Source: Magnetospirillum sp. WYHS-4 (lineage in GTDB: Bacteria; Pseudomonadota; Alphaproteobacteria; Rhodospirillales; GLO-3). From it: a stretch of 33,446 nucleotides of DNA. A model generated the notes under the pieces. The model was given only the letters and a program-made list of their open reading frames with translations. It had not been told where the DNA came from and searched no databases. Within the stretch, counting starts at the first letter, position 1. The number at the start of each line of letters is the position of its first letter. The DNA is taken from the NCBI GenBank assembly GCA_039908345.1, contig JAMOBD010000034.1:1-33446 (forward strand), in the 5' to 3' direction. Below, one piece after another: positions 8,935-30,706 of the stretch. The position numbers were made by a program, and so were the translations under genes.

Positions 8935-8960
8935 CGGGCGGGGGACTTTAGCCCCGCCCG
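8935..8960. terminator. Hairpin between cytochrome b gene and trpE
   Basis: CGGGCGGGG (8935-8943) pairs perfectly with CCCCGCCCG (8952-8960) around an eight-base loop. The right arm lies in the last codons of trpE and the loop holds its TAA stop. It could end transcription from both convergent genes, though there is no clear T run. Confidence 0.55.
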
Positions 8961-16200: not shown

Positions 16201-16286
16201 CGTGCCAGTCCCGTTCCCCTTTTGCGCCTTGCCCCTTTATCGAACAAATGCGGCTCCAAATCAATTGAGTATAACCGCTCTCCAGC

Positions 16287-16408
16287 CAGGGGAATCGGGT
16301 GAAGGCGGAGAGTCCTGCCAAAGCCTGGGAGCGCGGACGTCCCGTCCGCAAATTGCGGGCCGGAAGGGTAGGTTCGTTCCCCTTTGGGGCCTTCACCCGA
16401 TTGCCCTG
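16287..16408. mobile_element. MITE-like element with about 20-bp terminal inverted repeats
   Basis: CAGGGGAATCGGGTGAAGGC (16287-16306) pairs with GCCTTCACCCGATTGCCCTG (16389-16408), 19 of 20 positions matching. The 122-base unit has no coding capacity. Inside it GCGGACG-tcc-CGTCCGC (16333-16349) forms a further perfect hairpin. I see no clear target-site duplication. It lies between the sigma54 regulator gene's end and the methyltransferase start and could also act as a terminator. Confidence 0.6.
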
Positions 16409-16451
16409 CTCGCCGGGCCGGTGGACGTGTTCGACATTCGCACCGGATAGC

Positions 16452-17783
16452 CTATCCCGCCAGCCCCAGCTTTTGCATGCGGCGCCACAGCGTGCTGCGG
16501 TCGATGCCCAGCAGGCGGGCGGCCAGGGTGCGGTTGCCGCCGGCCTGGGCCAGGGCGGCTTCGATGCGGCGGCGCAGATCGTCGGGGCCGTCCTCCGTCC
16601 CGTCGTCGCCGCGCAGGCGGCGGCGGTTGTGTTCCTCGTATTCCCGGATGTCCTGGGGCAGGCTTTCCGGCAGCACCGTGTTGTCCACCGCGCAGATCAG
16701 CCCGTGTTCGACAGCGTTTTCCATCTCGCGCACGTTGCCCGGCCAGGGATAGTCCATCATCAGCCGCATGGCCTCGGGCGAACATTGCAGGTCCGCGACG
16801 TAACCCCTCTCTTGAAGTTTTTTGCAGAAGTGATTGATAAGCAATGGGATATCCCCTGGACGCTCGCGCAGCGGCGGGATGCCGATGGGGATCACCGCCA
16901 GGCGGTAGTAGAGGTCGGCGCGGAACTCGCCCGCGTCCACCATGTCGCGGACGTTGCGGTTGGACGCGCTGATGACCCGCGCGTCCACCTTGACCGGCTT
17001 GTCGGAACCGACCATCTCGAATTCCTGTTCCTGGATCGCCCGCAGCAGCTTGGCCTGGAGATGGATGGGGATCTCGCCCACCTCGTCCAGGAACAACGTG
17101 CCCCGGTGCGCCGCCTGGAAGCGGCCGGGCCGGTCCTGGGTGGCGCCGGTGAAGGCGCCGCGCACATGGCCGAACAGTTCGGACTCGATCAGGCTTTCGG
17201 GAATGGCGGCGCAGTTGACTTCGACGAAGGGATGTTCCGCCCGCCCGCTCAGGCGGTGGATCAGGCGGGCGATCTGGGTCTTGCCGGTTCCGGACTCGCC
17301 CTGCAGCAGCACGAAGGCATTGGTCGGCGCGATCTGTTCGATGCGCCGCAGGATGTCCAGCATGCGCGGATCGCTGCTGATGAGTTCCTGGCTGGCGCGT
17401 CGGATCGCCGCTTCCAGGTGGCGCTGCTCGGTCATGTCCTGGGCGATCACCAGGCGCAGGCGGCCGTTGCCGCCCGGCGCCTCGACCAGGCCGCAGTGGA
17501 AGCTGAGATCCCGCTGCTGCCCCTCGCGGGAAGCCACGCGCCGTTCGAACCTGACGAAGCCGCCGTCGCGGCGTCGGCCCGCCTCTGCGATCGCGTTCAG
17601 CAGGTTGAAATCGCCGATGCGGCCCAGTTCGCGGATCGGCTCGTTGGGCGAGGCGCCCAGCATCTCGCCCGCCGCCGGGTTCTGATAGAGCACCCGGCCG
17701 CGTTCGTCGGCGATGATGACGCCTTCCTCCATGAAAGCCACGATGGCCTCCAGAAGGGGATAAAGGTCGCCGATGGTTTCCAT
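16452..17783 (-). CDS. Sigma54-dependent transcriptional activator (PAS-AAA+-Fis)
   Basis: The 443-residue product has an N-terminal PAS domain ([20 protein letters not shown], about residues 10-120), a central AAA+ domain and a C-terminal Fis-type helix-turn-helix ([26 protein letters not shown]). Key motifs are Walker A GESGTGKT (162-169), the sigma54-contact loop GAFTGA (209-214) and Walker [10 protein letters not shown] (near 230). PAS suggests sensing of redox state or a small ligand; no heme-type signature is evident. It is transcribed away from the SCP2-RND genes and is their likely activator. The ATG at 17783 gives a natural PAS start; an ATG at 17855 would add 24 residues. Neither has a strong ribosome-binding site. 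Confidence 0.9.
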
Positions 17784-17826
17784 GGACGATTCGCCAGCCT
17801 GGACATTGCACACCCGGTTTTGTAGT

Positions 17827-17863
17827 GTTGCACGTCTCGCGGCGTTGCGCAACATGGTGCAAC
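17827..17863. promoter_or_regulatory. Putative activator-binding sites (GTTGCAC / GTTGCGCAAC / GTGCAAC)
   Basis: GTTGCAC (17827-17833), the palindrome GTTGCGCAAC (17844-17853) and GTGCAAC (17857-17863) share the half-site GTTGC, and the outer two form an inverted pair. They lie about 120-160 bases upstream of the -24/-12 promoter, the usual distance for enhancer sites of sigma54 activators. They also lie just upstream of the activator's own gene, so autoregulation is possible. A further inverted repeat AACCCC-accaa-GGGGTT is at 17886-17902. Confidence 0.55.
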
Positions 17864-18052: not shown

Positions 18053-18448
18053 ATGGCGGACATGTTTTCTGCCGAGTGGATGGCGAAGTTCAAGGACGCC
18101 TGGAATGCCGAGCCGGATCTGGCCGGCGCCCTGGCGAAGATCGGCTTCACCTCCAGCATCGCTTATGGGTTCGTGGACGAGGACAAGCCGCGGGGTGTCC
18201 TGGTCGTGCAGAACGGCATGGCCGTGGCCGGCGAGGTCTACACCGGCCAGCCGATGAACTGGGATCTGCGGGCGACGAAGGCCGATTGGGAAGGCTGGTC
18301 CAAGAAGCCCCCCGGGCTGATGGGCCTCGGCATGGCCTACACCTCGCGGAAGCTGCGCTTTGCGGTCGGCGACTACGCGGGCATGATCAAGGACCCGCGC
18401 ATGGCCGGCCCCTTCATCAAGAGCTTCCAGGTGATGGGGCGGGTCTGA
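18053..18448 (+). CDS. SCP2-like lipid-binding domain protein
   Basis: The 131-residue product is a single small domain without signal peptide. The stretch GVLVVQNGMAVAGEVYTG, then MNWDLRATKADWEGW, then YTSRKLRFAVGDYAGMIKDP resembles the SCP2 sterol-carrier fold, in which a beta-sheet and helices enclose a hydrophobic ligand. A purine-rich site (GAGGGAGGAAC) lies just upstream of ATG 18053. It is the first gene after the sigma54 promoter and is followed after three bases by the RND adaptor. A cytoplasmic carrier delivering a lipid-like or other hydrophobic ligand to the pump is a reasonable inference. The ligand is unknown. Confidence 0.7.
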   Translation: MADMFSAEWMAKFKDAWNAEPDLAGALAKIGFTSSIAYGFVDEDKPRGVLVVQNGMAVAGEVYTGQPMNWDLRATKADWEGWSKKPPGLMGLGMAYTSRKLRFAVGDYAGMIKDPRMAGPFIKSFQVMGRV

Positions 18449-18451
18449 TCC

Positions 18452-19588
18452 ATGACAATCCCGGCACGGCTTCTTGCCGCCGGCCTCCTGCTCGCCGCGG
18501 GCGTCGTCCAGGCCGCCGAATACGAGATCGCCACGGTCGCCACCCAGAAGGTGGGCCGGGCTGTCACGGTCGGCGGAACGGTGGTGCCCTATAAGGAAGT
18601 GACTCTCTCCGCCCAGATCCCGGGCGAAGTCACTTTCCTCGCCGGCACCGAGGGCGACGAGTTCACGTCGGGGGCCTCTCTGGTCTCCATCGACGACGCG
18701 GCCCTGCAGGCACAGAAACGGGCGGCCCTGGCGAACATCTACAACGCCGACGCGGCGCTTCGGAACGCGCAGGTCCAGTACTCGCGCGAACTTTATTCGC
18801 CGCAATCCAACAACGTCGGCCGCATGCCCGGCATGGGCATGCCGTCCATGTTCGACACGATGTTCACGCGCGGCATGTCCAACATGATGGGCATGGGCAA
18901 CAGCTACGTGGACCGTTCCGCCGATCTCTACGGCCAGGTGAGCGGCGTCAACCGGGCCCGCAGCAGCCTGTTGCAGGCTCAGGCCGAGGTGGAAACCATC
19001 GATGCCAAGCTGAAGGACGCCCGTCTGCATGCGCCCTTTGACGGCGTGGTGTTGAAGAAGATGGTCGAAGTGGGCGACACCGTGCAGCCGGGCCAGCCCC
19101 TGCTGCGTTTTGCCCATACGAAATACCTGCGCATCCAGGCCGAGGTGCCGGTCCGTCTGGTTGGGGCGCTCAGCAAGGGCGCCATGGTACCGGCCCGGCT
19201 CGACGTGCGCGGTGCGCGGGTCGATGCGCGGATCTCGCAGATATTTCCGATGGCGGATGCCTCGCGACACACGGTGACGGTCAAGTTCGACCTGCCCGTG
19301 GGCGTGGTCGGAGGTCCCGGCATGTATGCCGAGGTGCAGATCACCGATCCGGGCGCCGAAATGCGCGAGGAGCCGGTGATTCCGGAAGCCGCCCTGGTCT
19401 GGCGCGGCAGCCTGCCCGGCGTTTTCCTGTCGGAAGACGGCAAGATCGTCATGCGTTTGGTGCGATTGGGCGTGCCCATGGGCGACGGCCGGATCAGCAT
19501 CCTGTCGGGCCTGAAGGGCGGCGAGCGGGTGATCGTCAATCCGCCGGCCGGACTGGCGTCGAGCAGCGCGATCAAGATCGAAAAGTGA
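18452..19588 (+). CDS. RND efflux periplasmic adaptor (membrane-fusion protein) with Met-rich insert
   Basis: The 378-residue product has a signal peptide (LLAAGLLLAAGVVQAAEY), the lipoyl/barrel-sandwich halves (TLSAQIPGEVTFLAGTEGDE and ARLHAPFDGVVLKKMVEVGD), a helical hairpin between them and a C-terminal beta-barrel and membrane-proximal domain. This is the HlyD/AcrA-type order. The hairpin region holds an unusual insert at residues 125-148 with nine methionines in 24 residues (MPGMGMPSMF, MFTRGMSNMMGMG). It starts three bases after the SCP2-like gene. It should link the next-encoded RND pump to the outer membrane, yet no TolC-like gene is in the cluster. Methionine clusters bind Cu(I) in some transporters; here that is only a possibility. 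Confidence 0.88.
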   Translation: MTIPARLLAAGLLLAAGVVQAAEYEIATVATQKVGRAVTVGGTVVPYKEVTLSAQIPGEVTFLAGTEGDEFTSGASLVSIDDAALQAQKRAALANIYNADAALRNAQVQYSRELYSPQSNNVGRMPGMGMPSMFDTMFTRGMSNMMGMGNSYVDRSADLYGQVSGVNRARSSLLQAQAEVETIDAKLKDARLHAPFDGVVLKKMVEVGDTVQPGQPLLRFAHTKYLRIQAEVPVRLVGALSKGAMVPARLDVRGARVDARISQIFPMADASRHTVTVKFDLPVGVVGGPGMYAEVQITDPGAEMREEPVIPEAALVWRGSLPGVFLSEDGKIVMRLVRLGVPMGDGRISILSGLKGGERVIVNPPAGLASSSAIKIEK

Positions 19589-19642
19589 CAACGGTGCCTT
19601 CGCCGGGGGGAACCGGTGAAGGCCAGGGGGGATAAGCCTTCG

Positions 19643-22600
19643 ATGGCCGAGAACAAGCCGCAAGCGGAAGCCGAAGCCAAGGCCGCCTCTCCCGAGGCGG
19701 AATCCGCGGTGGACCACCTCGACGACCAGCACCTGGGACTGGCCGGCCGCATGGCGCGTGCCTTCATCCATTCGCCCCTGTCGCCGCTGCTCCTGGTGGC
19801 CAGCTTGGCACTCGGCATCCTGGGCCTGCTGGTGACGCCGCGCCAGGAAGACCCGCAGATATCAGTCCCCATGGTGGACGTGTTCTTCCAGTACCCGGGC
19901 GCTTCGTCGGAGCAGGTGGCGAGCCTCGCCATCGATCCGCTGGAACGGATGATGAGCGAGATTCCCGGCGTCAAGCACGTCTATTCCGCCTCCATGCGCG
20001 GCCAGGGCATGGTGACGGTGGAATTCGACGTCGGCCAGCAGATGGAAAACTCGCTGGTCAAGCTCTACGACAAGCTGATGTCCAACATGGACAAGGTTCC
20101 GCCGGGAGTCTCCCAGCCCTTGGTCAAGCCCAAGGGCGTCGACGACGTGCCGGTGGTGTCCCTGACGCTGTGGTCCCATGACGTGGACGACGCGGCGTTG
20201 CGCCTGATGGCGTTGGATGTGCTGCAGCGTCTGAAGGAAGTGCCCGACACCAGCCAAGCGTTCATTGTCGGTGGCCGGGCGGAGCAGATCCGGGTCGAGG
20301 TCTTCCCCGAGCGCTTGTCCGGCTACGGGGTCAGTGTCGGGCAATTGGCCCAGACCATCCAGACCGCCAATTCCGAGAAGGGAACCGGCTACGCCGAGAA
20401 TGAGACCGGCAGCTTCAAGGTCTATACCGGCGCCTTTCTGCGTAGCGCCGCCGAGATCGAACGTCTGGTGGTCGGCGTGCACAACGGCGCGCCGGTCTAC
20501 GTGCGCGACGTGGCCCGCGTATTCGAGGGCCCCGAGGACCCGCGCAACATCGTCCAGTACTTCACCGGTCCCGCTTACAAGGCGGGGACCGTCCAGGCTC
20601 CGCAAGGGGCGCCCGCGGTCACCATCGCCATCGCCAAGAAGCCCGGGAGCAACGGCGTTACCGTGGCCGACGGCATTCTGCGCCAAGTGGAACTCCTCAA
20701 GGGCCGGGTCATCCCCGACAATATCCAGGTATCCATCACCCGGAATTACGGCGAGACCGCCAACGACAAGGTCAACGAACTGCTGGTCAAGCTGTTCGTA
20801 GCCACGGGTGCGGTGACCCTGCTGATCTGGTTCTTCCTGGGATTCCGGGCCGCCACCGTGGTGCTGATCGTCATTCCGGTGGTCATTCTCGTGACGGTGT
20901 TCGCTGCTTGGTTGCTGGGATTCACCATCGACCGCGTGTCGCTGTTCGCCCTTATCTTCTCCATCGGCATCCTGGTCGACGACGCCATCGTGGTGATCGA
21001 GAACATCTACCGACGCTGGCTGCTGAAGGGGGAGGTCGATACCGCCATATCGGTGGATGCCGTTCGCGAGGTGGGCAACCCCACCATCCTCGCCACCTTC
21101 ACCGTGGTTGCCGCCCTGCTGCCCATGGGATTCGTGTCGGGCATGATGGGCCCCTATATGGCGCCCATCCCCATCCTGGGCTCGGTGGCGATGCTGTTCT
21201 CGCTGTTCGCCGCCTTCATCTTCACGCCCTGGCTGGCCATGCGCATCCGGCCTTCCATGGCCAAGCTCAAGTCTTCCCACGACAAGGAACACGCCCGGGC
21301 CCACCGCTGGGAGAGCTTCTACCGCCGCCTGCTGACGCCGCTGTTCGAGAGCGGCGGCAGGCGTGCCCTGTTCAAGCTCACCATGTACGGCATCTTGTTC
21401 GCCTGCTTCGCGCTCTTTTACACCACCCACGTGGCGGTGAAGATGCTGCCGCTGGACAACAAGCCGGAATTCAACGTGGTGGTGAATCTGCCCGACGGGG
21501 CGGCTTTGCCGGTCACCGCCAATGCCATCCAGCAGCTCTCCGAACGGCTGCAGCAGATCCCCGAAGTAACGGCGTTGCAGACCTATGCGGGTACGGCATC
21601 GCCCTTCAACTTCAACGGCTTGGTGCGCCACTACTACCTGCGCCAGGACGCATGGCAGGGCGACATCCAGGTCCAATTGCTGCACAAGCGCGACCGCAAG
21701 CGCTCCAGCCACCAGATCGCCGTCGAAGCGCGCGAGGTGCTGACCCCCATCGCGCGGAAGCTGGGCGCCCACATCCAGGTGGTCGAAATGCCGCCCGGCC
21801 CGCCGGTCCTGCAGACCATGGTGGCCGAGATCTACGGCCCCGACGACAAGACGCGCCGTCAGGTGGCCCGCGACCTGACGGGGATCTTCGAGAAGGCCGA
21901 AGGAGTGGTCGACGTCGACAACCTGATGCAGGACCCCTACGTTTCCTGGCGCTTCGTGGTCGACCGCGAGAAGGCGGTGCGCAAGGGGGTGTCGGTCGAG
22001 GACATCAACTCCCAGATCGAGATGATCATGGGGGGATTCAAGATGGGCGACATCAAGCTCGAGAGAGTGCTCGAGCCGCGCTACATCGTCCTGCAGGCGC
22101 CGATGGCCATCCGGAGCCAGTTCTCCCGCTTGGGCGAACTGCCGATTCCGGCCGGCAAGACAATGGTGCCGCTGTCCGAACTGGGACGCTTCGAGCCGGT
22201 GGAGCAGGACCCCATCCTGTTCCACAAGGATCTGCGGTCCGTCGAGTTCGTCACCGGCGAAGTGACCGGCCGCCTGGGCGCCCCCATCTACGGCATGCTG
22301 GCCGTGGGACGCTTGCTGGAAGGCTACACCGCGCCGGATGGCGTGAAGGTGGACAACTTCTATATCGGCGCTCCCCGGGACAGCTTCAGTTCGGCCTTCG
22401 AGTGGACCGGCGAGTGGACCGTCACTTACGAAACCTTCCGCGACATGGGTATCGCCTTCGCCGCCGCCCTGGCCCTGATCTACATGCTGGTGGTCTGGGA
22501 GTTCGGCAACTTCCGCCAACCTTCCATCATCATGGCGCCCATCCCGCTTACCCTGATGGGCATCATTCCGGGCCATTGGCTGTTCGGAGCGGAATTCACC

Positions 22601-23758
22601 GCCACCTCGATGATCGGCTTCATCGCCCTGGCCGGCATCATCGTGCGCAACTCGATTCTTCTGGTCGATTTCGCCAAGCATGCGGTGGCGGCCGGCATGG
22701 ACGTCCGCGATGCGGTGATCGAGTCCTGTGCCGCCCGCACGCGCCCGATCGTCATCACGGCGCTGGCCCTGGTCGCCGGCTCCAGCGTCATCCTGACCGA
22801 CCCCATCTTCCAGGGCATGGCCATTTCGCTGATGTTCGGCGCCATCGTTTCCACCCTGCTCACCCTGGTGGTCATTCCGTTGGGCTGCGTCCGGGCCCGT
22901 TCCTCCTTCAACGGCCGTCACGTGGCGGTGGCCGTGCCGATGGCCGGCCCCCATGGCGCCCTCGAGCATCATGTGGAAATGGTGGAAGAGGGACGGTACT
23001 GCGCCTCGTCCGGCGATGATCGTCCGCGGCGCGGCGCGACGTTGGGCCGGGCTGTTCTCTATGCCGTTCCCATCATGTTGAAGTTCCTGGCCGCCATCGG
23101 CCAGACCCTGTTGGCGGCCGTGCTGCGGCCTTTCCGACGCTGGGGGGCCGCGGAAAAGCTGCAGATGGTGGGCTATCTGCTCCGTGCCTTGCCGTATTTC
23201 CTGTGGCTGTTCGTCAGCGAGACCGCCAAGGGAATCGCCGCCAAGCTCCGTCGGCCTGCTGCGGCGCCCTACGTCGCGCCCGCTCCGGTGGCCGAACCGG
23301 CCCCCCCGGCGCCAGCCCCCAATCCTGCCCCGCCGCCCGAACCCGAGCCGCAGCCGGTACCCGAAAGCGTGGAACCGACTCTGGCCGTCGCCGAACTCGC
23401 GGTTCCTGCGCCCGAGGAACCGGTGGTCATCGAGGAGGTCGTGCCGCCCGTTCCCGCGTCGCCGCCGATCGAAGCGAAAAGGGAGGCGGCGAGGCCCGCT
23501 CCCGTATCTCGAAACAAGGTCGCCCAGTCCAAGAAGGCGCCGGTCAAGAAGACGGACCCCCAAGAGACGAAGAAGGCCGAGCGGCCGGGCCCTCAAGCCA
23601 AGCCGCGCCAGCCCGTACAGCCTGCCAAGTCCGCCAAGCCGGTTCGTCCGGCCGCGGTGCCCAAGGCAGGTGCCAAGCCCGCGGCGAAGGCGGGAAAGGC
23701 GGCGGGCCAGCGGCCGGGCCAACGGCGCGGCATTCGCCTCAAGTCGCGGCCGTCCTGA
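19643..23758 (+). CDS. RND-superfamily transporter with a long C-terminal cytosolic extension
   Basis: The 1371-residue product has a typical RND core to about residue 1080: a first membrane helix, porter domain (FFQYPGASSEQVASLAIDPLE), helix 4 with FSIGILVDDAIVVIEN (near 443), a second porter half, and a C-terminal helix set with GFIALAGIIVRNSILLVDFA. The VDD and IVRNSILLVDFA motifs are HAE1-like rather than metal-type. Beyond the core, where most relatives stop, about 290 residues follow: two more hydrophobic stretches (about 1136-1160 and 1176-1194), then a Pro/Ala/Glu-rich segment, then a strongly basic Lys/Arg/Pro/Ala tail ending RRGIRLKSRPS. ATG 19643 is preceded by GGGGGG; a GTG at 19616 would add nine residues. 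It is driven by proton flux in the known family; the substrate is unknown. Confidence 0.9.
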   Translation: MAENKPQAEAEAKAASPEAESAVDHLDDQHLGLAGRMARAFIHSPLSPLLLVASLALGILGLLVTPRQEDPQISVPMVDVFFQYPGASSEQVASLAIDPLERMMSEIPGVKHVYSASMRGQGMVTVEFDVGQQMENSLVKLYDKLMSNMDKVPPGVSQPLVKPKGVDDVPVVSLTLWSHDVDDAALRLMALDVLQRLKEVPDTSQAFIVGGRAEQIRVEVFPERLSGYGVSVGQLAQTIQTANSEKGTGYAENETGSFKVYTGAFLRSAAEIERLVVGVHNGAPVYVRDVARVFEGPEDPRNIVQYFTGPAYKAGTVQAPQGAPAVTIAIAKKPGSNGVTVADGILRQVELLKGRVIPDNIQVSITRNYGETANDKVNELLVKLFVATGAVTLLIWFFLGFRAATVVLIVIPVVILVTVFAAWLLGFTIDRVSLFALIFSIGILVDDAIVVIENIYRRWLLKGEVDTAISVDAVREVGNPTILATFTVVAALLPMGFVSGMMGPYMAPIPILGSVAMLFSLFAAFIFTPWLAMRIRPSMAKLKSSHDKEHARAHRWESFYRRLLTPLFESGGRRALFKLTMYGILFACFALFYTTHVAVKMLPLDNKPEFNVVVNLPDGAALPVTANAIQQLSERLQQIPEVTALQTYAGTASPFNFNGLVRHYYLRQDAWQGDIQVQLLHKRDRKRSSHQIAVEAREVLTPIARKLGAHIQVVEMPPGPPVLQTMVAEIYGPDDKTRRQVARDLTGIFEKAEGVVDVDNLMQDPYVSWRFVVDREKAVRKGVSVEDINSQIEMIMGGFKMGDIKLERVLEPRYIVLQAPMAIRSQFSRLGELPIPAGKTMVPLSELGRFEPVEQDPILFHKDLRSVEFVTGEVTGRLGAPIYGMLAVGRLLEGYTAPDGVKVDNFYIGAPRDSFSSAFEWTGEWTVTYETFRDMGIAFAAALALIYMLVVWEFGNFRQPSIIMAPIPLTLMGIIPGHWLFGAEFTATSMIGFIALAGIIVRNSILLVDFAKHAVAAGMDVRDAVIESCAARTRPIVITALALVAGSSVILTDPIFQGMAISLMFGAIVSTLLTLVVIPLGCVRARSSFNGRHVAVAVPMAGPHGALEHHVEMVEEGRYCASSGDDRPRRGATLGRAVLYAVPIMLKFLAAIGQTLLAAVLRPFRRWGAAEKLQMVGYLLRALPYFLWLFVSETAKGIAAKLRRPAAAPYVAPAPVAEPAPPAPAPNPAPPPEPEPQPVPESVEPTLAVAELAVPAPEEPVVIEEVVPPVPASPPIEAKREAARPAPVSRNKVAQSKKAPVKKTDPQETKKAERPGPQAKPRQPVQPAKSAKPVRPAAVPKAGAKPAAKAGKAAGQRPGQRRGIRLKSRPS

Positions 23759-23779
23759 ATTTTGTGACAGGAGATGATC

Positions 23780-24622
23780 ATGCGTTTCACGAGTTTTGTA
23801 TCCGCGCTGCTGGTGGCGATGCCCGCGCTGGCAGGGCAGGGAGATGGTGGCGGGTCGGTCGCGGGCGACATGCCCCCGGCACCTCCGGGACCCTACCAGT
23901 CCCAAATTCCCCAGATGGCGCCCATGCTGCCGCCCGGTCCCGGGAGCGCGGCCTATCCGCCCCTCGACTACAATCCCGAGGCGGTCAAGGAACGCATGGA
24001 GAAGGCGCGCGAGAATCACGAAAAGATGCGCGAAGATCAGCAGAGGCGCATGGAGTCGGTCCGCGAGGACCAGCAGAAGCGCCTGGATGCCGCGCGCGAG
24101 CGCCAGGAGGAATTCCGCGAAACCCGCGAGAAGGCCGCCAATCAGGCTCGTGACGCCGCTCGCGAGCGCCATGAAGCCATGCGCGAGGCCGCCGACCGCG
24201 GCCGTCCGTTGCCGCCGACGGCTCCCGTCGCCCAGGCACCCGCGCCGCAACAGGCTTCCCAGGTGCCCGCCGCCCCACCGCAGGCGCCGGTCTATGCGCC
24301 GCCGGGCTATGGTCCGGGATACTATGGTTATGCGCCACCGGCTGGGTACGGCTATGCTCCACCTTATGCCTATGGTGCCCCCTATGGCTATGGCAGTGGT
24401 CCCCGGGTTCAGGATGACTCCATCCGCCAGCGGCACGACGCCATGCGGGCCCAAGCCGAGGAGCGGGCGGAAAAGATGAAGGAATGGCAGGACAAGCGGC
24501 GCGAGGAGATGGAGCGCCGTCAGCCGCCACGTCCCGGGTACGGATATGGTCCCTACGGCCGTCCGTCCTATCCCTACGCTCCGGCTCCCCAGACTCCGGC
24601 CGGTAGCCGGGACGGGCGTTGA
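23780..24622 (+). CDS. Secreted protein with charged coiled coil and Tyr/Pro/Gly-rich segments
   Basis: The 280-residue product has a signal peptide (MRFTSFVSALLVAMPALAGQ), a Pro-rich spacer, a long highly charged helix (about residues 66-140, NPEAVKERMEKARENHEKMR onward, rich in Glu, Arg, Gln) and a Pro/Gln/Ala stretch. A Tyr/Gly/Pro block (GYGPGYYGYAPPAGYGYAPP), a second charged helix (RQRHDAMRAQAEERAEKMKE) and a final PGYGYGPYGRPSYPYAP block complete it. I chose ATG 23780 because AGGAGA lies six bases upstream; ATG 23774 overlaps that site. The Tyr/Gly blocks resemble the sulfur-globule-like protein two genes on. A structural, self-associating role in the periplasm is inferred. Confidence 0.75.
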   Translation: MRFTSFVSALLVAMPALAGQGDGGGSVAGDMPPAPPGPYQSQIPQMAPMLPPGPGSAAYPPLDYNPEAVKERMEKARENHEKMREDQQRRMESVREDQQKRLDAARERQEEFRETREKAANQARDAARERHEAMREAADRGRPLPPTAPVAQAPAPQQASQVPAAPPQAPVYAPPGYGPGYYGYAPPAGYGYAPPYAYGAPYGYGSGPRVQDDSIRQRHDAMRAQAEERAEKMKEWQDKRREEMERRQPPRPGYGYGPYGRPSYPYAPAPQTPAGSRDGR

Positions 24623-24652
24623 GGTGGTAGGGTAGGGGCGATCGGGGGTGCC

Positions 24653-25216
24653 ATGAAGTACGCACTGTCCCTGCTGACCGTTCTGGTAGCCGCTGTTTCG
24701 GCGGCGGCTCCGGCTGCGGCCGCGGACAATCCCTGGCGCCCCAGTGGGGACTACTACGGCGGGCGGGAGGCGGTTCCCCCTCCCCCAAAGCCGAAGAGTC
24801 CACCGGCCTTCGGCCTGCCCAGCAGGGACAGTCTCTACCCGCCTCTCAGCGAGGACGAGGTCCTGTCTCCGCGAGTTCCGGCCGCGTCGCCTCCCCAGTA
24901 TCCGCCCTTGGATACCGATGTCCCGCAGCGTGGCGGCGGGGTTCACGCGCCGGCCCATGTACCGCAGGCCCCCGCCATGGGGCCTGCGGTACAGGTTCCG
25001 CAGGCCGGCAATCCATCCCAGGCACCGACCGTGATCCTGGTGCAGCCGATGCCGGGTTACGGCTACGGTCATCCTGGGTTCGGGGGGCCTTACGGTGGCT
25101 ACGACCCCTATGCCCCCGGTGGGGGGAGTCCGTGGGGGATGCCACCTCCCGGCGGCGGCTGGCCCGGTGGTTGGGGCGGCGGAGCGCCGTTTCCCGGCGG
25201 GGCGGGCATGTGGTGA
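24653..25216 (+). CDS. Secreted Pro/Gly-rich protein
   Basis: The 187-residue product has a signal peptide (MKYALSLLTVLVAAVSAAAP, cleavage near AAAADNP). A Pro-rich body follows (REAVPPPPKPKSPPAFGLP, SPPQYPPLD) and then a Gly/Pro/Tyr/Trp-rich end (PGYGYGHPGFGGPYGGYDPY, GGGWPGGWGGG). No enzyme motif is seen. GGGGGTGCC precedes the ATG. A perfect 15-bp inverted repeat lies within the coding sequence (24958-24993). Composition links it to its neighbours on both sides, suggesting a set of structural envelope proteins. The gene starts 30 bases after the previous one. Confidence 0.7.
   Translation: MKYALSLLTVLVAAVSAAAPAAAADNPWRPSGDYYGGREAVPPPPKPKSPPAFGLPSRDSLYPPLSEDEVLSPRVPAASPPQYPPLDTDVPQRGGGVHAPAHVPQAPAMGPAVQVPQAGNPSQAPTVILVQPMPGYGYGHPGFGGPYGGYDPYAPGGGSPWGMPPPGGGWPGGWGGGAPFPGGAGMW
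24958..24993. repeat. Perfect 15-bp inverted repeat inside a coding sequence
   Basis: TGTACCGCAGGCCCC (24958-24972) pairs without mismatch with GGGGCCTGCGGTACA (24979-24993) around cgccat. The RNA hairpin would be very stable. It encodes the repeated residues VPQAP and VQVPQA, so part of the symmetry may come from the peptide. Confidence 0.7.
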
Positions 25217-25324
25217 TCGAATAGAATTACGGGCCAAGTGGTCCAGGGTTCCCGGGGTTCTCCCTCCCCCCAGGTCGCCAGAGGCAAGTCGAGAGGGAGA
25301 CAACAACTCGAGGAGTGACGTAAA

Positions 25325-25684
25325 ATGAAGACCTTCCTCAAGACGCTGGCGGTTGCTGGCATCGTTGGCGCCGCCGCGCTGTCCGCTGGCGATGCGAAGG
25401 CTTGGTGGGGCTGGGGTCCCTGGGGTGGCGGCGGCGGTCCGTTCGACGGTTCCGGCCTCGGCGACTTCAACATGAGCATGCGTGGGTCCGGCTCGGGCTA
25501 TGGTCATGGCTATGGTCACGGCTATCCCTATGGTGGCGGCTACGGCGGCTATCCGTATGGCGGCGGCTGGGGTGGTGGCCCGTGGGGTGGCTACGGCGCT
25601 CCCTACGGCGCTCCCTACGGTGCGCCCTATGGTGCCTATCCCTACGCTCCGCCGGCTCCGCCGGCTGCGCCCGCCGCCAAGTAA
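25325..25684 (+). CDS. Sulfur-globule-protein-like Gly/Tyr-rich secreted protein
   Basis: The 119-residue product has a signal peptide ([20 protein letters not shown], cleavage near GDAKA). It then has [34 protein letters not shown], tandem [20 protein letters not shown], four GAPY-type repeats and a Pro/Ala end (PAAPAAK). Trp-rich start, DFNMSMRG-like core and GYG/PYG repeats are the pattern I associate with the sulfur globule protein family, the periplasmic coat of stored sulfur in purple sulfur bacteria. The mature part has no cysteine. GAGGAG precedes ATG, and a 108-base gap separates it from the gene before. Alternative: an unrelated Gly/Tyr-rich surface protein. Confidence 0.6.
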
Positions 25685-25700
25685 GGCTGGCTCGGGATAC

Positions 25701-25736
25701 GGGACGATGCCGGGCTTTTCGGTTCGGCATCGTCCC
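25701..25736 (+). terminator. Perfect 12-bp hairpin after the sulfur-globule-like gene
   Basis: GGGACGATGCCG (25701-25712) pairs fully with CGGCATCGTCCC (25725-25736) around a 12-base loop, 16 bases after the stop codon. There is no T run after it, so it may stabilise the upstream mRNA or only partly stop transcription. Either would let the structural protein be made in excess of downstream products. Confidence 0.6.
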
Positions 25737-25785
25737 TCCATCCCCAAGACGACCCGATGAAGGCTCGCGAGCAAGGAGGGCGATC

Positions 25786-26727
25786 ATGCTGAGGACAGGA
25801 ACATGGCTTCCCGCGGCGGTATTGGTTTGCGCCGCTTCCGGAGCCTTTGCCGAGGGTGTCTCCTTCACGGCCGACGCCGTCCAGAAGCACCCGCAGCAGG
25901 GCACGGAACAGGGCAAGCTGTTCGCTTCGGATGTCGGCATGCGCATGGAGCGCAGTCAGCAGGGCCAGCAGGCGATTCAGATTTCCCTGCCCCAGGAAGG
26001 TGTGATGCGCGTTCTTTTCCCGGACAAGCAAACGTACGTCGAGATGCGCGGTGGGGCCGGTCCCGGCTCGGGAATCAAGCCCGACAATCCTTGTATGGGG
26101 CTGTCCGGAGACCGCTGCCAGAATCTGGGTACCGATACGTTGGGATCGGTCAAGACCGAGAAGTGGAGGATTTCCGCCGACCAGTCCCAGGGGCCGGTGA
26201 CCCTCTGGTGGGACCCGGAACGCAAGATCGCGGTGCGCCAGCAGTTCCCGGATGGTTCGTCCATGCAGATGGCCATGACCGGCGAGACCACCTGGGAGGG
26301 CCGCAAGGTCGAGAAATGGGAAATGACCAGCATCTCGGCCAAGGGCGAACAGCAGAAGGCCGAACAGCTTTTCGACCGCGAACTGAATATCGCGGTTCGC
26401 GAGGTGTTTCCCAACGGTGTTTCCCGCGAACTGAAGAACATCAAGGTGGTTAAGGCGGATCCGGCTTGGTTCGAGGTGCCCAAGGGCTACAGGCAGCAGG
26501 AACTGCCGCAGGCGCCGCAAGGTCAGGCACCCCAGGGCCAGATGCCATCCGGGATGTCGGGCATGCAGGGCCAGCCGGGCGGTTATCCGCCGCAAGGCTA
26601 CCTGCAGCGCGAAGGACAGCCGCCCCGGCCGGCGGTTCCGGGCCAACAGGGCTATCCGCAACCCGGCACCTACCCGCCTGGGTATCCGCCGCAGTATCAG
26701 GGGGGCCAACCCGGCTTCAGGCGATGA
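25786..26727 (+). CDS. Secreted DUF4412/LolA-like protein with Pro/Gln/Gly-rich tail
   Basis: The 313-residue product has a signal peptide (MLRTGTWLPAAVLVCAASGA, cleavage near FAEG). A beta-rich domain to about residue 235 follows, with FTADAVQ, GKLFASDVGMRMERSQQGQQ, MRVLFPDKQTYVEMRG, WRISADQSQGPVTLWWDP and GETTWEGRKVEKWEM. This resembles DUF4412 and LolA/LolB-like folds that hold lipid moieties. NPCMGLSGDRC has a cysteine pair. The last 75 residues are Gln/Pro/Gly/Tyr-rich, like the tails of neighbouring proteins. AGGAGG lies just upstream of ATG 25786. The stop overlaps the ATG of the ParA-like gene (ATGA), so the two are coupled. Family assignment is moderate; the ligand is unknown. Confidence 0.65.
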   Translation: MLRTGTWLPAAVLVCAASGAFAEGVSFTADAVQKHPQQGTEQGKLFASDVGMRMERSQQGQQAIQISLPQEGVMRVLFPDKQTYVEMRGGAGPGSGIKPDNPCMGLSGDRCQNLGTDTLGSVKTEKWRISADQSQGPVTLWWDPERKIAVRQQFPDGSSMQMAMTGETTWEGRKVEKWEMTSISAKGEQQKAEQLFDRELNIAVREVFPNGVSRELKNIKVVKADPAWFEVPKGYRQQELPQAPQGQAPQGQMPSGMSGMQGQPGGYPPQGYLQREGQPPRPAVPGQQGYPQPGTYPPGYPPQYQGGQPGFRR

Positions 26728-27341
26728 TCACGGTCGTTGGAAATCTCAAGGGCGGAACGGGGAAGAGCACCGTCGCCTTCAATCTCGGGCTTTGGCTGGT
26801 GACGCACAAGCGTGGCGTTCAGCTTTGCGACCTGGACCCCCAGGGCACGCTACGCGATGCCGCCGAGGTGCGGACCGAAGAAGGATTCCAGCCGGTTCTC
26901 GCCGTCATGGACAAACTGCCGGCCAAGCCGCAGTCGGAAATCCTGGTGGATGTCGGTCTGTCGGACGGGCCGGCGATGAACGATGCCCTGGCGCGGGCCA
27001 GCCGGGTGGTCATCCCCGTGGCGCCCAGTCAGGCCGATATCTGGTCGACCCAGCGGTTCATCGATATGATCGCCAAGCTGCATACCAAGAACCGCAAGGT
27101 GGAAATCCTGGCTTTCCTGAACCGGGCCGACACCCATCCGGCGGCGCGCGAAAACCAGGAGGCTATCGAAGCGCTGAAGCAGATCAAGGGCATCACGGTA
27201 CTCAAGCCGCGCTTGGCCCAGCGCATGGCTTTCCGGCGCTCCTTCTCCGAAGGGCTGGGGGTCTTCGAACTGGAGCCGCGCGGCAAGGCGGCCAAGGAAC
27301 TGGAGGCTCTAGCCCGCGCGGTGTTCGGCAGCGGTCGCTAG
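26724..27341 (+). CDS. ParA/MinD-type partition ATPase, without a ParB gene
   Basis: The 205-residue product starts MITVVGNLKGGTGKSTVAFN, carrying the deviant Walker A box KGGTGKST (residues 9-16) with the signature lysine. CDLDPQGT (near 36-42) and ILVDVGLSDG provide the switch and Walker B regions. It is a short ParA of the kind that positions plasmids, carboxysomes, chemosensory clusters or other cargo on the nucleoid. No ParB-like gene or parS-like repeat is adjacent, so this is probably a cargo-positioning member rather than a chromosome partition one. Its ATG overlaps the previous stop. Confidence 0.88.
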   Translation: MITVVGNLKGGTGKSTVAFNLGLWLVTHKRGVQLCDLDPQGTLRDAAEVRTEEGFQPVLAVMDKLPAKPQSEILVDVGLSDGPAMNDALARASRVVIPVAPSQADIWSTQRFIDMIAKLHTKNRKVEILAFLNRADTHPAARENQEAIEALKQIKGITVLKPRLAQRMAFRRSFSEGLGVFELEPRGKAAKELEALARAVFGSGR

Positions 27342-27389
27342 AGTCGGATTTTGCAGGGATCAACACGAGAGAGACAGGGGATTACGGAT

Positions 27390-28235
27390 ATGGGCTTGCT
27401 TCGTTGGGCGACCAACCATCTGGTGGCGGTGCTGCTGATCGCGGTGCTGTTCGCCGCCCTTGTGTTCCGGCAGGAACTGGCTTCCGAATTCGGATTCCAG
27501 ACACAGATGGCTGACCTGGATCGGCATCTGGACTGGAAGCGCTACTGGCCGACCGGCACCAGTTCCACGGTCAAGGTGCGCGAGGCGGCACCCGCGCCGG
27601 CCAAGCCGTTGGCTGTGGTCGAGCAGAAAGGGGCATGGGATCGCTTCTGGCCGACCGGCAGCGTGTCTTCCTCCGTGGCTCGGGTCCGTCCTGCGGACCC
27701 GGAGGCCGCCGCCAAGCCGCCCCAGGCCGCCGCCGCTTTGCCGCAAGTCCGTCCGGCTCCTCCGGCGGTTCCGGTTCCCGCCGCCGGCATGCAGGGAATG
27801 TACGGCATGGGGGGCATGACCGGGATGCAGGCCCAGAAGGCGCCCGCGCCGGCTCCCGCTTCGGTTGCCGCACCCGCTCCGACGCCGGCCCCGCGGCCCG
27901 TGGCGGCTCCTGCCGCAAATCTTCGCGATGGCTGGATGCAGGCGCGCCGCGCCTACGCCATCGGCGACCTGAACGCGGCTGCCGAGGCCTATCGGGCCCT
28001 GGTCGCGCAGTATCCCGAGGAAGCCGACATCGCTGGCGAACTGGGTAATGTCTATATGCTTCAGGGGCGCGGCGCCGACGCGGCCGACGCTTTCTACGAA
28101 GCCGGGCAGCGCCTGCTGCGCGGGCCGAACTGGGTGCGCGCCCAGGCGGTCCTGCCAGTCCTGAACCAACTGGACATGGCCAAGGCGGACTCCCTGCGCA
28201 AGCAGATCCTCCAGGCCGTCCAGGGCGGCCGTTAA
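27390..28235 (+). CDS. Membrane-anchored TPR-like protein with Pro/Ala linker
   Basis: The 281-residue product has one N-terminal membrane helix (HLVAVLLIAVLFAALVF, about residues 10-26). A duplicated motif follows (DWKRYWPTG near 48-56 and AWDRFWPTG near 82-90), then a long Pro/Ala-rich linker with a Met-rich patch (GMQGMYGMGGMTGMQ). A C-terminal helical region, about residues 180-281 (ARRAYAIGDLNAAAEAYRAL and GELGNVYMLQGRGADAADAF), is TPR-like. AGGGG lies nine bases upstream of ATG. It starts 48 bases after the ParA gene. A periplasmic scaffold linking membrane to other products of the cluster is a plausible inference. I do not know a named family for the duplicated WPTG motif. Confidence 0.7.
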   Translation: MGLLRWATNHLVAVLLIAVLFAALVFRQELASEFGFQTQMADLDRHLDWKRYWPTGTSSTVKVREAAPAPAKPLAVVEQKGAWDRFWPTGSVSSSVARVRPADPEAAAKPPQAAAALPQVRPAPPAVPVPAAGMQGMYGMGGMTGMQAQKAPAPAPASVAAPAPTPAPRPVAAPAANLRDGWMQARRAYAIGDLNAAAEAYRALVAQYPEEADIAGELGNVYMLQGRGADAADAFYEAGQRLLRGPNWVRAQAVLPVLNQLDMAKADSLRKQILQAVQGGR

Positions 28236-28278
28236 GAACCCGACCGCCGACAGAAAAGTATATGAGAAGGGTCCGACA

Positions 28279-28866
28279 ATGAATGCCATCCGCAATATCC
28301 TGGCCCTGCTGGGCCTCATCGCCGTCGTCGCCATCGCCGTGCTCTATCCGAAGGCGGCGCCTTACTTGGGCGCCTTCCAGAAATTCGATCCCAAGGCCAT
28401 GGACGTCTACGTCGAGATGATGGACGGCTTGGTCAAGACCGGCAATCCCGCAGAGGCCATGATCTGGAAAGTCCAGGTCAAGGATGGGCTGAAAGCGGAA
28501 GACGTCGAGGAATCCCTCAAGGTCATCGCCAACGAGCACAACTTCATGCTGGTGGGCCGTCTGCCCTTCTACCAGCAGATCGAGGCGATCACCGGCAAGC
28601 CCTACCGCAAGGTCCTGTTCTATCTCATGTGCGATGCCTTGATCGGCCGCGACATGCTGGACGTCAGCGATGCCTATTCGGCCTTCATGCCCTGCCGCAT
28701 CAGTCTGGTCGAGGACAAGAGCGGCCGTCTCTGGCTCTATACGCTGAACATGGATTCCATGATCTACGGCGGTACGCCTCTGCCGGCCGATCTCAAGACC
28801 AAGGCCGAGAAGGTCAAGAAGATCATGCTCGACATCATGAACCGCGCCGCCAAAGGAGAGTTCTGA
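28279..28866 (+). CDS. DUF302 domain protein with N-terminal membrane anchor
   Basis: The 195-residue product has a membrane helix (residues 5-23, RNILALLGLIAVVAIAVLYP). A DUF302-type domain follows: LVGRLPFYQQIEAITGKPYR, KVLFYLMCDALIGRDMLD, AYSAFMPCRISLVEDKSG and LWLYTLNMDSMIYGG. Cys118 and Cys139 lie at positions where this family often has conserved residues. DUF302 proteins have no settled function. Many occur in sulfur-oxidising bacteria, which fits a sulfur link but does not prove it. GAGAAGGG precedes ATG. The gene is followed after 32 bases by the dynamin-like gene. Confidence 0.8.
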   Translation: MNAIRNILALLGLIAVVAIAVLYPKAAPYLGAFQKFDPKAMDVYVEMMDGLVKTGNPAEAMIWKVQVKDGLKAEDVEESLKVIANEHNFMLVGRLPFYQQIEAITGKPYRKVLFYLMCDALIGRDMLDVSDAYSAFMPCRISLVEDKSGRLWLYTLNMDSMIYGGTPLPADLKTKAEKVKKIMLDIMNRAAKGEF

Positions 28867-28898
28867 TCTCCTGGGCGCCGACCAAGAAGGAACCCGCC

Positions 28899-30401
28899 AT
28901 GCTCAACGGACCCGGCAAGGCCGTTTCGGCCCGCCTGAACAGCCTGGAAACCCATCTGCGGGCGGAAAACCCGACCTTGCTGGCGGTGGTGCCCACCTTC
29001 CGCCATCTGGACAAGGTGCTCTATCGCATGGGGCTGCTGGACCGCGAGGAATCGCTGGCCAGCCGCATTCCCTGGTGGCCGTTGGTCAGTGTGCTGGGAA
29101 CCTTCTCGTCGGGGAAGTCGACCTTCATCAACAGCTTGCTGGGCCAACCCCTGCAGACCACCGGCAACCAGGCGGTGGACGACAAGTTCACCGTGGTCTG
29201 CTTCGGGCCCGAGAACCAGAACCGGGTCTTGCCGGGCATGGCGCTCGATGCCGATCCGCGCTTTCCCTTCTATGGAATGAGCGCCGAGGTGGACAAGGTG
29301 GCGCGCGGCGAGGGTAAGCGCATCGACGCCTACCTGCAGCTCAAGACCACGCCCAGCACATTCGCTCGCGGCAAGATCGTCATCGACTCGCCGGGGTTCG
29401 ACGCCGACGACCAGCGGCGCTCCATCTTGCGCCTGACCGACCATATCGTCGACCTGTCGGACCTGGTGCTGGTGATGTTCGACGCCCGCCATCCCGAGCC
29501 GGGGGCCATGGCGGACACCTTGCAGCATCTGGTGGCCAAGACGGTCAAGCGGCCGGATGCCGGGAAGTTCCTCTATATCCTGAACCAGATCGATACGGCC
29601 GCGCGCGAGGACAATCCGGAAGCCGTGGTGGCGGCATGGCAGCGGGCCATTGCCCACGCCGGTCTGACCACCGGGCGTTTCTACACCATCTACAACGAGG
29701 CGGCGGCGGTACCGATCGCCGACGCCGGGCTCCAGGCCCGCTTCCAGGCCAAGCGCGACAAGGACCTGGGCGAGATCATGGCGCGGCTCAAGGACGTCGA
29801 GGTGGAGCGGCAGTACCGCATCATCGGTACCCTGGAGCGGGTCGCCAACGAGGTGGAACGGGAAATCGTGCCGGCGCTGGAGCGGGCCATCGCCCGCTGG
29901 CGGCGGCGGACGGCGGCGGCCGAGATCTGGTCGGTCGGCTTGGTATTGGGAGTGCTGGCTGCCCTGGAGGTGGGGACCGACGGCGGCATTCTCCGGGCTA
30001 TCGGCGAGTGGTACATGGCCATGTCGCTGCAAGGGCAGGGGGCCTTCCTGGCGGCGGTGGCGGTCTTTCTGCTCATCGCCCATTTGTGGCTGCGCGACCT
30101 GCTGGGCCGTTCCATCGCCAAGGGCCTGCCTGGCAAGTTCGGTGCGGTGGAACTGAGCCCGCGCGCCGCCTTCGTGAAGAACCTGGGGTCGCTACGGGGC
30201 CTGTTCAGTCGCAATCCGGTCGGCTGGGGCGCGGGCACCCAGCGCAAGCTGCAGGAAATCCGCGACGAGGCGGCCCGCCACGTGCAACGTCTGAACGACC
30301 TCTATACCGATCCCTCCGGCCGCCAGCGCGATGCGGCGGAAAAAGCGGCTGCCGAGGCCGCCGCCAAGGCGGCGGAAGCGGCGGTGACGCCGCCGGTCTG
30401 A
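28899..30401 (+). CDS. Dynamin-like membrane GTPase
   Basis: The 500-residue product has a GTPase domain with G1 GTFSSGKST (67-75), G3 DSPG (163-166) and G4 NQID (229-232). A helical region and two hydrophobic segments follow (about 343-359 and 379-397), with a basic then Ala/Glu-rich C-terminus. FSSGKST and the two late membrane segments are typical of bacterial dynamin-like and membrane-remodelling GTPases. AAGAAGGA lies upstream of ATG 28899. It is the last gene of the plus-strand series and is followed by a strong hairpin. Together with ParA it suggests that a membrane-bound body is shaped and placed. The exact subfamily is uncertain. Confidence 0.82.
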   Translation: MLNGPGKAVSARLNSLETHLRAENPTLLAVVPTFRHLDKVLYRMGLLDREESLASRIPWWPLVSVLGTFSSGKSTFINSLLGQPLQTTGNQAVDDKFTVVCFGPENQNRVLPGMALDADPRFPFYGMSAEVDKVARGEGKRIDAYLQLKTTPSTFARGKIVIDSPGFDADDQRRSILRLTDHIVDLSDLVLVMFDARHPEPGAMADTLQHLVAKTVKRPDAGKFLYILNQIDTAAREDNPEAVVAAWQRAIAHAGLTTGRFYTIYNEAAAVPIADAGLQARFQAKRDKDLGEIMARLKDVEVERQYRIIGTLERVANEVEREIVPALERAIARWRRRTAAAEIWSVGLVLGVLAALEVGTDGGILRAIGEWYMAMSLQGQGAFLAAVAVFLLIAHLWLRDLLGRSIAKGLPGKFGAVELSPRAAFVKNLGSLRGLFSRNPVGWGAGTQRKLQEIRDEAARHVQRLNDLYTDPSGRQRDAAEKAAAEAAAKAAEAAVTPPV

Positions 30402-30411
30402 GGGCCAACCC

Positions 30412-30455
30412 GACGCCTCGGAAGACGTCAACTTGCCGCGTCTTCCGCAGGCGTC
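30412..30455. terminator. Strong bidirectional hairpin between the dynamin-like gene and bolA
   Basis: GACGCCTCGGAAGACG (30412-30427) pairs with CGTCTTCCGCAGGCGTC (30439-30455) with a single-base bulge. The right part overlaps the last codons of bolA. It should end the long plus-strand series and also bolA. Confidence 0.7.
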
Positions 30456-30706
30456 AGGGTGGTCAGCGCCAGGGCGTGGACACCGTTCTTCAGTTCTTCG
30501 GCCAGCAGGGCATAGACCTGCCGCTGGCGGTCGACGCGCGACTTCCCCTGGAAGGCGGCCGAGACCACCTCGACGCGGAAATGGCTTTCGCCTTCCGGGC
30601 GCCAACCTCCGTGCCCCTCGTGGTGGCAGGATTCGTCGATCACCGCCAGGCGGATCGGTTGCAGGGCCTCGGCGAGCTTGCGTTCCATGGCTTGGGCGAC
30701 GGCCAT
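30428..30706 (-). CDS. bolA: BolA family protein
   Basis: The 92-residue product is a full-length BolA: IRLAVIDESCHHEGHGGWRP, EGESHFRVEVVSAAFQGKSR, VDRQRQVYALLAEELKNGVH and ALALTTLTP. BolA proteins partner monothiol glutaredoxins in Fe-S cluster and iron handling and respond to stress. ESHF and VHALAL are hallmark motifs. It is a single gene on the minus strand, divergent from the EamA gene and convergent with the dynamin-like gene. Start ATG 30706 is the usual one; an ATG seven codons later is possible. Confidence 0.92.
   Translation of the reverse strand: MAVAQAMERKLAEALQPIRLAVIDESCHHEGHGGWRPEGESHFRVEVVSAAFQGKSRVDRQRQVYALLAEELKNGVHALALTTLTPAEDAAS

Follow-up and report, generated by a model that had tools for sequence, protein, structure and literature searches.

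A conserved sigma54-associated pump, coat, ParA and dynamin-like gene set in Magnetospirillum sp. WYHS-4 with a probable role in sulfur globule biogenesis

Allochromatium vinosum forms periplasmic sulfur globules, which are well studied. In the available passages of one paper, what is in print on the making and bounding of such globules amounts to a small number of coat proteins that can in part stand in for each other (PMC10386293). Among these sulfur globule proteins (SGPs) is SgpD, whose gene adjoins that of a hydrophobic/amphiphilic exporter and rises 28-fold on sulfide (same passages of PMC10386293). A second described system is the operon Dsui_3440-3443 of Azospira suillum PS, which combines a sulfide:quinone oxidoreductase (SQR) with a resistance-nodulation-division (RND) pump and its membrane fusion protein (MFP). 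Here we describe eleven plus-strand genes at positions 18053-30401 of contig JAMOBD010000034.1 of Magnetospirillum sp. WYHS-4 (33,446 nucleotides, the whole of which is hereafter called the window). To judge from sequence comparison, the locus very likely acts in Dsr-type sulfur oxidation, and it is probably a sigma54-controlled operon that builds, coats or places stored periplasmic sulfur globules in a sulfur oxidiser of the reverse dissimilatory sulfite reductase (rDsr) type.

The locus resembles both described systems in part. Like SgpA, SgpB, SgpC and SgpD of A. vinosum, it encodes secreted repetitive proteins, and relatives of one of these pass the cut-off of the SGP family PF17228; sgpD differs in being a separate unit, for which the passages of PMC10386293 name no SCP2, LolA-like, ParA or dynamin partners. 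With Dsui_3440-3443 it has in common a pump of the RND-MFP type, which in A. suillum is highly expressed during sulfide oxidation; that operon differs in containing SQR, and neither SGP nor ParA nor dynamin is among the four genes named in the available part of PMC5358917.

Gene content and conservation of the locus

The eleven genes, all on the plus strand, are the following.

18053..18448, +, cytoplasmic protein without signal peptide, with an SCP2 fold in the predicted structure
18452..19588, +, RND periplasmic adaptor (MFP); TIGR01730, 161.9 bits against a cut-off of 94.9
19616..23758, +, RND permease; ACR_tran, 480 bits; long Pro/Ala/Lys-rich C-terminal tail in the same frame
23774..24622, +, secreted Pro/Ala/Arg-rich protein, by signal peptide and composition; PPxPxGPY near the start
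24653..25216, +, secreted Pro/Gly-rich protein; NPW near the start, YPPLD later
25325..25684, +, secreted Gly/Tyr/Trp-rich SGP-like protein; PF17228, 18.8 bits, below the cut-off of 26.7
25786..26727, +, secreted LolA/RseB-like (DUF4412-related) protein (gene 7), by profile matches of homologues and predicted fold
26724..27341, +, ParA-type ATPase; CbiA, 54 bits; KGGTGKS; ATGA overlap with the preceding gene
27351..28235, +, TPR protein (gene 9); TPR, 33.7 bits; one N-terminal membrane helix
28279..28866, +, membrane-anchored DUF302 protein; PF03625, 33.8 bits against a cut-off of 23; one N-terminal helix
28899..30401, +, dynamin-like GTPase; Dynamin_N, 53.1 bits against a cut-off of 27; two C-terminal membrane segments

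The original prediction, made from the letters of this DNA, had described eleven closely packed plus-strand genes including an export pump, a DUF302 protein, a ParA protein and a dynamin-like GTPase. The packing is confirmed by intergenic gaps of -4 to 108 bp, and the family calls by the profile matches listed above. The start codon of the TPR gene is uncertain, with an ATG at 27390, and the LolA/RseB-like gene 7, missed in that first reading, was identified in the follow-up. The eleven genes are presumably co-transcribed as an operon.

A key question is how widely this gene set is kept. From a scan of genome contigs that returned at least 565 dynamin-like relatives, the best 80 loci were selected by their dynamin gene; our gene calls in these loci are crude and many of the loci end at contig ends, so that the gene counts are lower bounds. 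ParA was found in 48 of the 80, the TPR protein in 42, the LolA-like protein in 40, RND in 36 (37 less one paralogue, a 34% match encoded on the opposite strand of locus L095), MFP in 31, DUF302 in 18 and the SCP2-fold protein in 13. Much of the set occurs, largely in order, in Rhodospirillales, Rhodobacteraceae, Sedimenticola and Chromatiales, with Magnetovibrio blakemorei MV-1, Magnetospira, Maritimibacter and a Solemya symbiont among the carriers. Operon-bearing Alphaproteobacteria share the gene order of the window, and so do some Gammaproteobacteria (such as L047, L070 and L089); in Sedimenticola, the Solemya symbiont and some other Gammaproteobacteria, the pump genes lie on the opposite strand and the dynamin gene is divergent. 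With the window or Sedimenticola permease as query, operon copies in related loci are 57-82% identical. The original prediction had named homologous loci with only scattered subsets of the genes as a finding that would speak against it; many loci in fact keep most genes in order.

Of 147 genomes from the taxonomic order to which Sedimenticola and A. vinosum belong, 134 contain the MFP at E<=1e-50, and in 133 of these its identity is at least 56%. Twenty Chromatiales regions, picked from genomes carrying the MFP gene, contained RND (20), ParA (20), the neighbour family C50 (17), dynamin (15), the LolA-like gene (12), SCP2 (11) and DUF302 (10). In A. vinosum itself, the locus includes MFP, RND, a secreted protein, the LolA-like gene, ParA and C50, and genes for elongation factor P and a class II tRNA synthetase lie nearby. 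Because these two are Alvin_1754 and Alvin_1753, respectively, in the available text of PMC11267869, the locus should fall at approximately Alvin_1759-1765, and thus not at sgpD.

Some neighbours and copies recur outside the eleven genes. A family termed C12, with a YEAGHA motif, invariant cysteines and weak Peptidase_M41 or M50 matches, adjoins the dynamin gene or operon in 29 of the 80 loci (including L037:11474-12037) and also occurs at L108:12045-12704; it was not seen in the window. In L108, a second RND-MFP pair (13427-17823) precedes the operon by about 2 kb, with C23 and C12 genes between. Many gammaproteobacterial genomes (for example G636, G756 and G777) harbor a second, shorter pump copy that has no tail and is 57-62% identical to the Sedimenticola operon pump.

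Co-occurrence with dissimilatory sulfite reductase

The genome of the window carries dsrA (559.6 bits, above the curated cut-off), directly followed by a weaker match that we read as dsrB; judged by the group of organisms, these dsr genes would be of the oxidative type. In the 50 of the 80 loci that were compared for this trait, dsrA was present in 37 of 38 operon-bearing genomes vs. 1 of 12 in which the dynamin gene stands by itself, and the only operon genome without it (L033) is a metagenome-assembled genome. The background is low in the class sample, where dsrA exceeded the cut-off in 4 of 241 genomes.

In the order sample of 150 genomes, 59 had dsrA, 17 the dynamin gene and 14 both, i.e., dsrA was present in 14 of the 17 dynamin-bearing genomes vs. 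45 of the 133 others (Fisher p 2.7e-4). The three remaining dynamin-bearing genomes belong to one genus and contain the dynamin gene alone (L118-L120). Among 323 gammaproteobacterial genomes, a pump orthologue was found in 66, dsrA in 104 and both in 56, so that dsrA accompanied 56 of 66 genomes with the orthologue vs. 48 of 257 without (p 1e-23). Relatedness inflates these p-values, and the safer guides are the agreement of the two classes and the counts by genus, which in the order sample were 10 of 11 genera with the dynamin gene vs. 25 of 61 without (p 0.003). Orthologue (at least 52% identity) and paralogue (at most 47%) were separated by a cut of our own, with the two best candidates per genome scored. 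The count of 104 applies at E<=1e-60; 103 lie above the curated cut-off, and the exception (G816, a fragment) carries the pump orthologue.

A few further genes were seen next to individual loci. In L046, cysG, two NIR_SIR genes, two DsrE-family genes and dsrC follow 2-9 kb behind the dynamin gene; a 40% DsrC-like match lies beside the locus in L170, and a flavoprotein gene follows the dynamin gene in L053 and L063.

In a quick tree of the dynamin-like proteins, the Azospirillum rows together with L041, L052 and L118-L121 form one clade of 23 inside the alphaproteobacterial part; the group without operon includes contigs too short to judge (for example L041 and L068) and two with DUF302 (L021 and L039). 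The lone dynamin-like genes of Azospirillum and L118-L121 fall in one clade, and their genomes mostly have no dsrA. Such a lone gene may serve another role.

Components and control of the putative operon

Between the pump and the LolA-like gene, alphaproteobacterial loci encode up to three types of secreted protein in constant order. The first type carries PPxPxGP(Y/F), the second has NPW followed further on by Y(A/P)PxD, and the third is rich in Gly, Trp, Tyr and Asn. When 41 distinct loci (five duplicates dropped) were sorted with simple patterns that we devised, the PPxPxGP type occurred in 21, the NPW type in 19 and the Gly/Tyr type in 25 of 29 alphaproteobacterial loci, all three together in 14; the Gly/Tyr type occurred in 1 of 12 gammaproteobacterial loci (L089, which carries all three). 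Searched against PF17228 at E<=0.1, 20 of 27 proteins of the Gly/Tyr family matched, the best at 9.9e-25. Five were rescanned: four matched, three of them above the gathering cut-off (34.5, 36.1 and 68.7 bits), and one did not, while none of five composition-shuffled controls matched. The alignment of SGP-type proteins leaves out 2 of the 28 found (L020 and the second L111 protein) and adds that of the window, which has a signal-like N-terminus and consists of 31% G, 12% P and 11% Y. Of the Gly/Tyr-rich, coat-like protein proposed in the original prediction, the secretion signal and the composition hold. Three relatives exceed the PF17228 cut-off, and the window's own protein, the fourth of the rescanned matches, stays under it.

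Two further proteins have predicted folds that resemble those of carriers of hydrophobic ligands. The original prediction had called the first gene SCP2. Sequence lends this call no support: searches of Pfam, NCBIfam and the PDB gave no match of the product to SCP2, and SCP2 Pfam models matched 0 of the 22 proteins of its family, in which the window protein is 57-77% identical to 21 homologues. By predicted fold the call stands, the AlphaFold model (pLDDT 92, from 22 sequences) aligning with SCP2 structure 2cx7 at Z 16.5 and a root-mean-square deviation of 2.4 over 122 residues (Foldseek 3.4e-6). The product is therefore classed as SCP2-like in predicted fold only.

Homologues of gene 7 match DUF4412 in 11 of 26 cases (best 9.1e-10) and MucB_RseB in 3 of 26 (best 0.0017) at E<=1, and that of A. 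vinosum reaches 24.3 against DUF4412, with a cut-off of 21.6. The model of gene 7 has a pLDDT above 90 over most of the fold, and LolA (LolA3) and RseB are among its top Foldseek matches, with Z of 10.9 to 7.7 for RseB/LolA entries and low Foldseek TM-scores of 0.2-0.5. Since the scores of an uncharacterised Thermus protein (Z 12.3), VioE and ependymin-related proteins equal or exceed these, the predicted shared fold is insufficient to fix the function. Gene 7 is thus like the LolA/RseB family in predicted fold, but differs in an identity of only 8-17% in the listed alignments, and, in contrast to the LolA system, no LolCDE-like partner was found among the eleven genes. In the models, folds of hydrophobic-ligand carriers flank the RND pump on either side, and the SCP2-fold protein, the pump and the LolA-like protein may work as a relay.

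The ParA-type ATPase has a KGG-type Walker A motif, and its nearest solved structure by sequence is ParF. Family and motif are shared with ParA/ParF and with cargo-positioning ATPases of the McdA type; the locus differs from ParA systems in that no ParB-type family was found among the eleven genes, where the partner of ParA may instead be the membrane-anchored TPR protein. Members of the families C23 and C50, with one membrane helix and a Met-spaced coiled coil (L046:487-912, L094:2475-3020 and L167), occur as neighbours in 17 and 11 of the 80 dynamin loci, respectively, and these coiled-coil proteins are further candidates for such a partner.

The dynamin-like GTPase retains intact G1, G3 and G4 motifs in the window and in all 80 homologues. 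It shares this GTPase domain with EHD and bacterial dynamin-like proteins, EHD4 and EHD2 being the nearest solved structures by sequence. Similarity to the known proteins is weak, with 28 bits to EHD4 and 20.1 to IniA, and unlike EHD proteins it has two membrane segments of its own and no EH domain match.

The elements surrounding the eleven genes in the window are listed next.

16452..17855, -, divergent sigma54-dependent activator; PAS - AAA+ (Walker A, GAFTGA) - Fis-type helix-turn-helix
17986..18001, +, -24/-12 (sigma54) promoter match TGGTATGGAAATTGCG; 11 of 12 consensus positions
30400..30470, +, strong hairpin without T-run, -44.1 kcal/mol, z -5.85; overlaps the end of the convergent bolA gene
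30428-30706, -, convergent bolA gene, 104.6 bits, downstream of the dynamin-like gene

The promoter match, TGGTATG-N4-TTGCG, lies upstream of the first gene and outside the interval 18053-30401 for which the original prediction had claimed a -24/-12 promoter. That claim holds up well, as the site is the sole match of at least 11 of 12 positions on both strands of the window and is kept in relatives. Of 10 operon-bearing relatives retrieved with a long upstream stretch, 8 possess an orthologue of the divergent activator (51-67% identical), and each of these 8 shows a -24/-12 site with 11 or 12 matches in the space separating activator and operon. Counting the window, 9 of 9 such gaps (3.0 kb) contain a site of at least 11 of 12, compared with two sites in the other 378 kb, both strands included. 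The combination that marks a sigma54 regulon, a -24/-12 site with an adjacent GAFTGA-bearing activator, is thus present. The -24/-12 consensus, the GAFTGA motif and the ATPase and GTPase motifs of the operon proteins are used here as general background. No receiver domain was found in the activator by profile scan. Because L108 and L112 possess the operon and show no activator in the fetched stretch, sigma54 control is a feature of only part of the operon family.

The original prediction had also proposed a strong closing hairpin downstream. Its strength is borne out (z -5.85), but it has no T-run and is not listed as terminator-like. No Rfam family above its gathering score and no tRNA were found in the window. 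Beyond the activator gene lies a Type IIG restriction-modification enzyme (13132-16200, -; PADLOC 3e-79, N6_Mtase match), and further upstream are genes for a glutathionylspermidine synthase (2490-4100, -), a BamB/PQQ propeller (5997-7322, -), a cytochrome b561 (8303-8923, +), an anthranilate synthase I (8948-10462, -) and a SurA/PPIC-type isomerase (10464-12368, -).

Sulfur globule biogenesis and competing explanations

The conserved gene set, the co-occurrence with dsrA and the relatives that pass PF17228 support, on comparative grounds, the program for an envelope-associated inclusion, possibly sulfur globules, that the original prediction had put forward. The evidence favours sulfur over a generic lipid store because of the dsrA co-occurrence, the SGP-passing proteins and the presence of the locus in A. 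vinosum and M. blakemorei MV-1; for globules in cultivated marine magnetotactic Alphaproteobacteria, the available passage of PMC4169400 cites a paper on MV-1 and MV-2.

In the proposed mechanism, the activator would sense a redox or sulfur-related signal via its PAS domain and turn the operon on. By analogy with the SGPs of Chromatiaceae, the three secreted low-complexity proteins, one of SGP type, would make the globule coat. A hydrophobic cargo (a lipid, or else a long sulfane carrier) would pass between the cytoplasm and the growing globule through a carrier-pump-carrier relay made up of the SCP2-fold protein, the RND-MFP pump and the LolA/RseB-like protein. ParA might position the globule, or the site where it is assembled, together with the membrane-anchored TPR and DUF302 proteins, and the inner membrane around it might be shaped by the EHD/dynamin-like GTPase. 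More tentatively, the globules of many Alpha- and Gammaproteobacteria could have a dedicated organelle-like apparatus in which the relay brings a hydrophobic sulfur or lipid cargo to the coat of secreted proteins, and ParA and the EHD-like dynamin position the globule and wrap the inner membrane around it.

A number of observations weigh against globule biogenesis. The window's SGP-like protein scores below the PF17228 cut-off, none of five scanned SGP-type proteins matches NCBIfam, and 11 of 12 gammaproteobacterial loci scanned have no SGP-type gene inside the locus. In A. vinosum, the locus numbers of sgpA, sgpB, sgpC and sgpD are far from that of this locus; according to the passages of PMC10386293, sgpD is number 2515, beside its exporter gene and away from the pump-ParA locus, and an sgpD mutant has normal globules. 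In the available text of a pyrite-growth transcriptome of A. vinosum, sgpD and dsr genes fall, and none of the ten Alvin_17xx entries lies within Alvin_1755-1769 (PMC11267869). SUP05 bacteria have periplasmic globules, yet where the available text of PMC6509183 treats cell-division proteins, they are reported to have no dynamin. Deletion of the A. suillum SQR-RND-MFP operon left the rate of H2S oxidation unchanged, as stated in the accessible part of PMC5358917. The dynamin gene stands alone in 21 of the 80 loci, 17 of them Azospirillum and a few on short contigs, and of the 116 loci searched, L046 is the only one that dsr genes adjoin. Finally, 10 of 66 gammaproteobacterial genomes with the pump orthologue have no dsrA, and many dsrA genomes have no dynamin gene (45 of 59 in the order sample, 3 of 4 in the class sample) or no pump orthologue (48 of 104 in the gammaproteobacterial sample), so that the operon is dispensable for Dsr metabolism.

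Another explanation is an envelope system against sulfur stress. The RND pump would then rid the cell of polysulfide, persulfide carriers or metal sulfides that arise as sulfide is oxidised, with envelope repair left to the other genes. The dsrA association fits it equally well, and the A. suillum SQR-RND-MFP operon is highly expressed under H2S oxidation; in the available passages, its authors suggest that the induction of RND is a response to metal sulfide toxicity (PMC5358917). We consider this explanation unlikely, as it leaves unexplained the three secreted coat-like proteins, including the SGP type, and the retention of ParA and the dynamin-like GTPase.

Remodelling of lipids or membranes (export of hopanoids, quinones or other lipids), needed by sulfur oxidisers for reasons other than globules, would draw on the fact that the SCP2 fold, the LolA/RseB-like fold, the RND pump and the EHD-like GTPase are all lipid- or membrane-related; HpnN also appears as a weak NCBIfam match of 11.6 bits. 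The tight link to dsrA and the SGP-type genes within alphaproteobacterial operons make such a role quite improbable.

ParA and dynamin-like proteins serve other inclusions as well. A machine for magnetosomes, polyhydroxyalkanoate or intracytoplasmic membranes could be imagined from the occurrence of the locus in the magnetotactic Magnetovibrio and Magnetospira and in the phototroph A. vinosum, yet it is also carried by Sedimenticola, Maritimibacter and the Solemya symbiont, none of which is, to our knowledge, magnetic or phototrophic; the trait in common is dsrA, and we regard another inclusion as very improbable. A plain multidrug pump operon whose neighbours have no connection with it, suggested by the resemblance of the permease to multidrug RND pumps, is extremely improbable and was rejected on its conserved context, i.e., a gene set kept in two classes, a conserved sigma54 site and the dsrA association, and no outer-membrane channel family was found among the eleven genes by profile scans. 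Chance clustering of the eleven genes was also considered and rejected, as was anti-phage defence, with no PADLOC match for the dynamin-like, ParA, SCP2-like and TPR proteins.

The original prediction knew of no described system with this exact gene set, and none appeared, by title and start of abstract, among the open-access papers listed for sulfur globules together with the component families. A search for DUF302 with sulfur oxidation (titles and starts of abstracts of the open-access literature) gave no paper on the gene set, and no paper naming Alvin_1760 to Alvin_1765 was found in that literature. Each component family is known; the set as a system is undescribed in the literature searched.

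Fluorescent tagging and gene deletion are possible for the globule proteins of A. vinosum, as described in passages of PMC10386293. The conserved A. vinosum locus would thus make the building and placing of globules, and the transfer of sulfur across the inner membrane, directly testable. If globule biogenesis is indeed the role of the locus, a periplasmic inclusion would join those bacterial bodies for which a machinery of ParA and dynamin is likely.

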